DNA of 64,000 nucleotides, from contig NZ_ARWE01000001.1 in assembly GCF_000384395.1 (NCBI RefSeq), positions 3,322,501 to 3,386,500 on the forward strand, read 5' to 3'. The translations under genes and the position numbers were made by a program. Positions 8,698-10,988 of the stretch are shown here, in pieces. Positions within the stretch are counted from its first letter, which is position 1; every line of letters starts with the position of its first letter. The DNA comes from Geopsychrobacter electrodiphilus DSM 16401. GTDB lineage: Bacteria; Desulfobacterota; Desulfuromonadia; Desulfuromonadales; Geopsychrobacteraceae. The notes beneath the pieces are model-generated. The model searched no databases. It saw nothing but the letters and a program-made list of their open reading frames with translations, and was not told the DNA's origin.

Positions 8698-9001
8698 AAC
8701 CTGCCTCCTTCCAAGTCCCGAGACCACTGACGCTTTGCACTGCGCAAGGGGAAAAGTCTTCCCCTCTCTGATGGAAGGCTATCAACTGCAGGGCTGATCA
8801 CAATGACCGAAACGTCTATCTTTCTTAAACTTTAGTCTATACCGCCAATATCGCCGTGCTCTTGTCTTTGCTAAATGGCTTTTTCGGGCTTGAAAGCTTA
8901 TTGGAACTAAAAAGATTTTATTCCTTTTCCCGTTTGTGCAATGCTCTGCATGAATTTTAGGATACCGAACCCCATCTGCAATGTCCCCTCTCGGAGCACA
9001 C
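8698..9001. other. 304-bp divergent intergenic region
   Basis: This region carries the strong ribosome binding site of the minus-strand lipoprotein gene (AGGAGG at about 8702-8710). On the plus side, GGAG at 8993-8996 decides the GTG start of the nuclease fusion. A small stem (AGGGGAA/TTCCCCT, 8747-8765) lies in the minus-strand leader. I see no clear sigma-70 or sigma-54 promoter. Confidence 0.5.
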
Positions 9002-10435
9002 GTGAGCTTGTTACCGCAACTCTATCTGCTGGACGGATCCAGTTATATCTACCGCGCCTATTATGGCGTGCGCGACCGGGCCACCGCTGGCGGCATACCG
9101 ACCAATGCCATCTTCGGCTTCACCCGGATGCTCCTCGGTCTGCTGCAGGAGCAGCGTCCCGATTTTCTGGCGGTGGTCTTCGACCCACCGCGCGCAGAGA
9201 CCTTCCGTCGCGAGCTCTATCCGGCCTACAAGGCGAATCGGGAAGATATGCCCGCAGAGTTGGCGATGCAGATTCCCACCATTAAACAGATGCTCCAGGC
9301 CCTGAATATCCCGGCCCTCGAAGCCCCCGGGTTTGAAGCCGACGATCTCATCGCCACTCTGGCGCGTCGTTACGCCGCCGAAGGGGTGCAGGTCACGGTC
9401 GTCACCGGCGATAAGGACTTGATGCAGATTGTCGGAGAGCGCATTACCCTCCTCGACACCATGAAAAGTGTGCTTTCGGGTCCCTTGGAGGTTCTCGAGC
9501 GCTTCGGCGTCCCGCCCGAACTGGTGGCGGATGTGCTGGGGCTTTCCGGTGACACCTCGGACAATATTCCTGGCGTCCCCGGTATCGGCGAGAAGACGGC
9601 GGCCGACCTGGTGCAGCGCTTCGGTTCGATGGAACGCGTTCTCAAATGGAAGGATCAGGTCAAGGGGAAGAAGCGCCGCGAGAATTTACGCGCTTTTGAA
9701 GAGCAGGCGCGACTCTCGAAGACCCTCGCCACCGTCCGCTATGACGTCCCTTTTGCGCTGAGCCTGGCCGAATTGCAGCGCCAGAAGCCGAACCTTGCGA
9801 CCCTGCTCCCCCTGCTACATGAGCTGGAATTTGAAACCCTGGCCGTCGCCTTCACCCCGGCTGAGGCGGGCCTGGTCGAGATCTACACCGATGGCTCCGG
9901 CCGTGACTCTGGCCCCGGCGGTTATGGCGTGATCCTGCGTTATGCTGATTTCGAGAAAGAGTTGAGCGGCTTTGAAGCGGTAGCCACCTCGCAGCGCATG
10001 GAACTGCTGGCGGCGATCAGGGGGCTGGAAGCGCTGAACAGCCCGAAGCGGGTGCGCCTGTTCAGTGATTCGCAATACCTGGTGCGTGGAATGAGCGAAT
10101 GGCTGGTCGGCTGGATTCGCGACGGCCGACTGGAGACGCCGGACGCCCTGGCGAATCAGGACCTCTGGCAGCAGCTGGTCCCCCTGTCACGCACACACCA
10201 GATCGACTGGCAATGGGTGCGCGGGCATGCCGGCCACCCGTTTAATGAACGCTGCGACAAGTTGGCAAAGCGCGCTGTCGAGGAGGGTCTGCGGCTGGCG
10301 AACGAGCCTGTCGAGCCTCGCGAGCAAGAACCGCTGCAGCCAGTGGCTGTCGCTGCGGTTGTGCCGCGACCGGTTCCCATTGAAGATTATTCTGAGTTCG
10401 GTGTTGACGAGGATGGTCAACAGCGGCTGTGCTAA
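9002..10435 (+). CDS. Fusion of a Pol I-type 5'-3' exonuclease with ribonuclease HI
   Basis: This 477-residue protein joins two complete nucleases. Residues ~1-270 match the 5'-nuclease domain of DNA polymerase I: LLDGSSYIYRAYY, GFEADDLIATLA, VTGDKDLMQ, and the helix-3-turn-helix GDTSDNIPGVPGIGEKTA (from residue ~183). No polymerase domain follows. Instead residues ~290-425 are RNase HI with its full catalytic set: D297 in YTDGSG, E334 in RMELLA, D356 in FSDSQY, D419 in NERCDKLAKRAV, plus the VRGHAGHP loop. The ~50-residue tail is unrecognised. The GTG at 9002 has GGAG five bases upstream; the ATG at 8981 has no site. Together the activities could remove RNA primers or R-loop flaps. Confidence 0.85.
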   Translation: MSLLPQLYLLDGSSYIYRAYYGVRDRATAGGIPTNAIFGFTRMLLGLLQEQRPDFLAVVFDPPRAETFRRELYPAYKANREDMPAELAMQIPTIKQMLQALNIPALEAPGFEADDLIATLARRYAAEGVQVTVVTGDKDLMQIVGERITLLDTMKSVLSGPLEVLERFGVPPELVADVLGLSGDTSDNIPGVPGIGEKTAADLVQRFGSMERVLKWKDQVKGKKRRENLRAFEEQARLSKTLATVRYDVPFALSLAELQRQKPNLATLLPLLHELEFETLAVAFTPAEAGLVEIYTDGSGRDSGPGGYGVILRYADFEKELSGFEAVATSQRMELLAAIRGLEALNSPKRVRLFSDSQYLVRGMSEWLVGWIRDGRLETPDALANQDLWQQLVPLSRTHQIDWQWVRGHAGHPFNERCDKLAKRAVEEGLRLANEPVEPREQEPLQPVAVAAVVPRPVPIEDYSEFGVDEDGQQRLC

Positions 10436-10445
10436 GGAAACTACG

Positions 10446-10988
10446 ATGAAGATCCAGACATTAAGCGAAGAACATCGCGCCAAGGCCTACGCCCTCTTAC
10501 GCAACGCGTTCCCCGAGAGCGAGTATGAAGCGACCCTGGTGCAGTTGCTCCACGCCAGAGACAAACCCCTCCACGAATGGGTCTGCCTCCACACCGGCAA
10601 GGCCATCGCCTACATCGCCTTTGCTAATGCCTATCAGGGCCGCAAGGTCTGCGGCCTGCACCTGGCGATGATAGCCGTGAGCCCCGAATTTCAAAAACAG
10701 GGAGTGGGCGCAGAACTGCTGCGCTTTGCCCTGCGCCAGGCAGCGATCAAGGAGCAGGCATTGTTCGTTCTGGGCGCTCCCGCTTTTTTTCAAAAATTCG
10801 GTTTTGAGCCCTGCAGTTCGCCCCTTTGTCCTTACACCAGAAACAACACCAATTTCATGAGCCTGCGCAATCTGGACGACACCAATTTTACGGTCGGCTA
10901 TGAGCCGGAGTTTAAGGCGGCAACCAAACAAACACGGCAGAAGGAAGAGATTCGACCAGCCAAAGGGGGCGTCAAGAAACGCCACTGA
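10446..10988 (+). CDS. GNAT family N-acetyltransferase
   Basis: This 180-residue protein has the GNAT fold pattern: the LHLAMIAVSPEFQKQGVGAELL segment contains the acetyl-CoA pyrophosphate-binding Q-x-x-G-x-G/A motif, and APAFFQKFGFEPC is the typical C-terminal strand. The family transfers acetyl groups to amines; the substrate cannot be told. The C-terminal ~25 residues are Lys/Arg-rich and probably disordered. Start: ATG at 10446 with AAGGA upstream, 10 bp after the fusion nuclease stop, suggesting an operon. Confidence 0.82.
   Translation: MKIQTLSEEHRAKAYALLRNAFPESEYEATLVQLLHARDKPLHEWVCLHTGKAIAYIAFANAYQGRKVCGLHLAMIAVSPEFQKQGVGAELLRFALRQAAIKEQALFVLGAPAFFQKFGFEPCSSPLCPYTRNNTNFMSLRNLDDTNFTVGYEPEFKAATKQTRQKEEIRPAKGGVKKRH

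Follow-up and report, generated by a model that had tools for sequence, protein, structure and literature searches.

The usual view of bacterial primer removal divides the work between the 5′ nuclease of Pol I and the RNases H, which act separately. In archaea and eukaryotes, FEN1 and RNase H2 carry C-terminal PIP boxes that tether them to the clamp. RNase HI can also be joined to a second enzyme, as in the mycobacterial RNase HI-CobC protein (PMC7466739). We additionally observed that RNases HI of Psychrobacter (L076-L085) are fused to a DnaQ-like 3′-5′ exonuclease (RNase_T) domain. Here we analyzed a 64,000-nucleotide stretch of the Geopsychrobacter electrodiphilus DSM 16401 genome (the window) and found that one of its genes encodes a 5′ nuclease and an RNase HI in a single protein. 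A literature search, thin on subscription papers, found no description of a 5′ nuclease-RNase HI fusion, and the first-pass annotation had likewise known of no characterized protein of this kind. On balance, its sequence points to an enzyme of the Geobacter/Desulfuromonas class that processes RNA-DNA substrates with two activities and would act on primer or R-loop hybrids.

The open frame called on the forward strand spans 8981..10435. An SD-like GGAG was read at 8993-8996, and GTG 9002 is the likely start because this motif lies five bases before it and conservation begins just after it. All three Pfam matches of the fusion passed the cut-off and were near full length, in the order 5_3_exonuc_N (E-value 4.6e-57), 5_3_exonuc SAM/H3TH (5.6e-32) and RNase_H (2.2e-35); the same search revealed no polymerase or 3′-5′ exonuclease domain in the protein. 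The nuclease half is of the Pol I type and thus, judged by homology, a flap/5′ exonuclease. The first-pass annotation had placed the start at 9002, in agreement with the GGAG spacing and the onset of conservation, and had described a 5′ nuclease and RNase HI in one polypeptide with no polymerase part; this architecture holds, with three near-full-length domains in a single unbroken frame. The AlphaFold2 model (mean pLDDT 85.5, pTM 0.78) represented both domains well and left residues 434-476 disordered. Its N-terminal half matched the folds of 5′ nucleases and Taq and its C-terminal half that of RNase HI, and structure comparison found no solved structure covering both domains together. Among NCBIfam models, the ribonuclease HI equivalog scored just above its cut-off and all 5′ nuclease models fell below theirs, so that automatic pipelines would probably name the fusion ribonuclease HI alone, and it may have escaped attention under that name.

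Table 1. Features of the fusion gene and its downstream neighbor, in window coordinates.
Feature	Coordinates	Strand	Details
5′ nuclease-RNase HI fusion CDS	9002..10435	+	GTG start, TAA stop, 477 aa; frame conserved in >45 genomes
5′-3′ exonuclease N-terminal (resolvase-like) domain, PF02739	9020..9508	+	Pfam; metal ligands D10, D60, E111, D113, D114, D136, D138 (P0001 numbering, without start Met)
5′-3′ exonuclease C-terminal SAM/H3TH domain, PF01367	9509..9793	+	Pfam; D183, D186; basic KWK..KGKKRREN stretch
RNase HI domain, PF00075	9875..10279	+	Pfam; D296, E333, D355, H408, D418 (P0001 numbering)
RNase HI handle ("basic protrusion") region	10091..10168	+	One residue shorter, basic character gone: MSEWLVGWIRDGRLETPDALANQDLW
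Disordered, variable, P/E-rich C-terminal tail	10304..10432	+	AlphaFold2 pLDDT <50 at 434-476
C-terminal peptide, conserved, clamp-binding-motif-like	10397..10432	+	Consensus [FY][DE]x[DE]xDGQLxL[C/Y/V]-COOH; window copy FGVDEDGQQRLC
GNAT acetyltransferase gene	10446..10988	+	10 bp 3′ of the fusion

A scan of public genomes revealed 43 loci with the same fusion (67-79% identical, some cut by contig ends), nearly all of them in Desulfuromonadales/Geobacter-type bacteria. Within the class, 26 of 67 genera have the gene, as do 44 of 187 genomes of good quality and 47 of the full set of 200; sampling 395 genomes across the phylum turned it up only in members of the class. It is rare in Geopsychrobacter's own family, where 3 of about 45 genomes have it. 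One Nitrospirae-labelled MAG (GWC2_56_14, L030) contains the fusion at 69% identity, possibly through transfer or mis-binning. No fused copy was found among plasmids, phages and viral contigs, within the limits of the search patterns and thresholds used, and a phage or plasmid origin was rejected on this ground.

Phylogenetic analysis of the 5′ nucleases placed the fusions in one clade (support 100/99), with the PolA nuclease of their own class as its sister (joined at 97/96); the nuclease half is thus a duplicate of a class PolA nuclease. The class's own PolA nuclease domains are also its closest relatives by identity (50-62%). In the RNase HI tree, the fusions adjoin the stand-alone enzymes of the class (85/82). 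Comparison of the fusion and PolA trees showed that 11 of 21 splits, corresponding to family-level groups, are common to both (Mantel r 0.41, a value that none of 2000 permutations attained), which indicates mainly vertical descent with many losses; some horizontal transfer may also have occurred.

The same pairing is found in Piscirickettsia in the reverse order, RNase HI first and then the 5′ nuclease, in all three genomes searched from the Piscirickettsia order (L053, L054, L192), where it stands beside a normal polA and rnhA. The nuclease of this second fusion groups with Piscirickettsia PolA (99/94), and a single clade of both fusions' nucleases was rejected (AU p 0.001). Given the opposite domain order and the nuclease tree, the pairing arose at least twice; this independent origin is carried by the nuclease half and the domain order, and not by the RNase HI half, for which a shared origin with Piscirickettsia is compatible with the data (AU p 0.56).

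The RNase HI half of the fusions departs from stand-alone enzymes in its handle. Solo RNases HI show the pattern GWKNSxKKxVxNRDLW and a mean net handle charge of +3.3 (2 to 5), whereas all 48 aligned fusions have a one-residue deletion and the pattern G-RLETPDALANQDLW, and the mean charge in fusions is -1.3 (-4 to 2). The fusions therefore do not have a basic handle of the E. coli type, both charge and length being changed in all of them. Since RNases H without a handle exist and the basic handle is not universal (PMC3443672), this loss does not exclude membership of the RNase HI family. As the fusions form one clade, the handle change counts as one evolutionary event and not as many. In the nuclease half, residues 201-232 have a net charge of +3.3 in the fusions versus -0.9 in the class PolA, and this basic stretch weakly supports the idea that the nuclease half provides the lost grip; such compensation is only suggestive because PolA, too, has part of the KKRREN stretch. 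The altered handle could instead mean weaker RNase H activity and not delegated binding.

The second departure is the C-terminal tail, a variable, P/E-rich segment of 58-75 residues when counted from the ERCD motif to the C-terminus. Against this variable background, G, Q and the penultimate L of its last residues are each present in 50 of 51 tails, and 46-50 of the 51 terminate in GQLxL[C/Y/V]. The peptide resembles a β-clamp-binding motif, for which the bacterial consensus is QL(S/D)LF (PMC9690074), and QLPLF, QLDLF and QMDLF are found in Y-family polymerases that these genomes encode. We treat a clamp tether as a hypothesis because the usual final Phe is absent and the window copy reads GQQRLC. 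There is a substantial chance, somewhat short of even, that the peptide has a different partner or role, either as a mimic of the SSB C-terminus, which is acidic and hydrophobic-ended, or as a turnover signal. A disordered tail in which acidic residues run up to a hydrophobic end would suit such a role, as would the final residue, usually Cys and atypical for clamp motifs, although the Q-L-x-L core fits the consensus for clamp binding and also the corresponding motifs in other proteins from the same genomes.

Whether the genome also has a separate rnhA and a full-length polA had been raised when the locus was first read, and both were found (polA as a 913 aa frame at C1:881638), together with rnhB. 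Furthermore, separate RNases HI and HII are encoded in all of eleven further fusion-bearing genomes and in two Piscirickettsia genomes, and polA was confirmed beside the fusion in those fusion genomes examined for it. We therefore rejected the fusion as a substitute for a missing polA or rnhA, all of these being present in the carriers tested; it is an addition and not a replacement. The presence of polA, rnhA and rnhB in tested carriers, combined with the patchy occurrence of the fusion (44/187), means that it cannot be a core Okazaki enzyme. A further RNase H-like protein of 171 aa with a weaker Pfam match is encoded elsewhere in the genome (L003; G000:C1:3314748-3315164), where its gene adjoins one for a transporter-like membrane protein, and a similar protein occurs in G113.

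This accessory, patchy distribution in genomes that already hold the full primer-removal set would also suit an enzyme of R-loop repair or of RNA-contaminated-DNA repair that is not an Okazaki factor, its nuclease trimming displaced or nicked DNA at the edge of transcription-linked hybrids. In some genomes, a gene near the fusion points the same way, encoding either a DEAD-box RNA helicase of the DbpA type or a pseudouridine synthase. However, the neighbors vary: among 41 loci, roughly a dozen have a GNAT gene shortly downstream of the fusion, and others have DEAD-box, RluA or SEC-C genes nearby. No pathway is indicated by neighbors that are not fixed. The handle that grips the hybrid in RNase HI is gone as well, and the tail peptide suggests replication proteins. 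We consider this repair role unlikely. A fixed operon partner was likewise rejected, as neighbors are not constant among the 41 loci; the GNAT gene, which occupies the corresponding position in several other genomes, is probably co-transcribed with the fusion and lies outside the proposed mechanism.

Both halves of the fusion appear intact. In the window protein, the catalytic RNase HI residues D297, E334, D356, H409 and D419 (start Met counted) are all present and 12 of 12 active-site positions of the 5′ nuclease, comprising acidic metal ligands and K/R residues, are kept. Across 55 fusions, the only deviations at these 12 sites were D60E, seen twice, and D183A, seen once; the RNase HI D-E-D-H-D set is retained in every fusion, with one member unaligned at the first D. 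E. coli Xni, examined as a control, departs from this set at three columns, where it has G, I and S. The D183A change at a nuclease metal ligand belongs to a MAG (L033) and may reflect a degenerate copy or a sequencing error. In close pairs, the nuclease half had a dN/dS of 0.07-0.19 and the RNase H half one of 0.03-0.09, with higher values in the tail; selection on both halves is strongly purifying. The initial description of intact RNase HI carboxylates and 5′-nuclease motifs thus extends, near-invariantly, to the fusions as a group, and catalytic activity in both halves is likely on the strength of these residues. That one half alone is active, with the nuclease serving as a DNA-binding module or the RNase HI as a weak hybrid-binding module, is quite improbable: the degraded handle and the precedent of Xni, a 5′ nuclease fold persisting with altered metal sites, speak for it, and they are opposed by metal ligands kept in both halves of almost every member and by low dN/dS in both. 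The weakest alternative is that assembly or annotation wrongly joined two genes. The first-pass annotation had named an assembly join as a finding that would undo its proposal; this alternative has a negligible chance of being true and is ruled out by a genome that is a single 4.24 Mb contig and by the same fused frame in >45 independent assemblies across the class.

Taken together, these results are consistent with a bifunctional enzyme that could plausibly serve in removing primers or in processing R-loops. With moderate confidence, we propose that the RNase HI half would cut the RNA strand of a hybrid, either an Okazaki primer or an R-loop, while the 5′ nuclease half would bind the same junction, supplying the substrate grip that was lost with the RNase HI handle. 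The nuclease half would then take off what is left of the 5′ end or flap, down to the last ribonucleotide, so that PolA and ligase would have a nick or gap to close. Less firmly, with weak to moderate confidence by analogy, the flexible tail with its GQLxL[C/Y/V] peptide may tether the fusion to the β sliding clamp or to another replication protein. A bolder version of this proposal, a clamp-tethered primer-removal enzyme whose RNase HI, its own substrate handle given up, relies on the fused flap nuclease and which was invented at least twice in opposite orders, is offered tentatively, and we regard it as somewhat doubtful. If both activities are real, the fusion would be evidence that the two primer-removal steps are coupled in cells, and the separate derivation of the nuclease half in two phyla is part of that case. 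The protein would also offer a single-protein system in which to study the hand-off from hybrid cleavage to flap trimming, and the lost RNase HI handle yields a specific, testable prediction on how the halves cooperate.

The component families are well known and RNase HI occurs fused to other enzymes as well; what draws attention here is the combination itself, together with its recurrence and the concrete predictions that handle and tail allow. The 5′ nuclease of PolA (Taq, Mycobacterium smegmatis Pol I) has the same two Pfam domains and all the catalytic residues; the fusion differs in having RNase HI in place of the 3′-5′ exonuclease and polymerase parts. Stand-alone 5′ nucleases and FENs (E. 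coli ExoIX/Xni, M. smegmatis FEN 6c33) are polymerase-free and of the same fold, but they are without RNase H, and Xni misses some metal ligands that the fusion keeps. E. coli RNase HI (RnhA) has the fold and D-E-D-H-D site in common with the fusion, which in contrast is without the basic handle, is joined to a 5′ nuclease and ends in a conserved tail peptide. In RNase HI-CobC and the Psychrobacter fusion, the partner is a phosphatase or a 3′-5′ exonuclease and not a 5′ flap nuclease. A further counterpart is the Piscirickettsia protein, which unites the same two enzymes with all active-site residues kept, although it places RNase HI first, has a nuclease derived from its own PolA, retains a handle of net charge +2 and has no matching tail.
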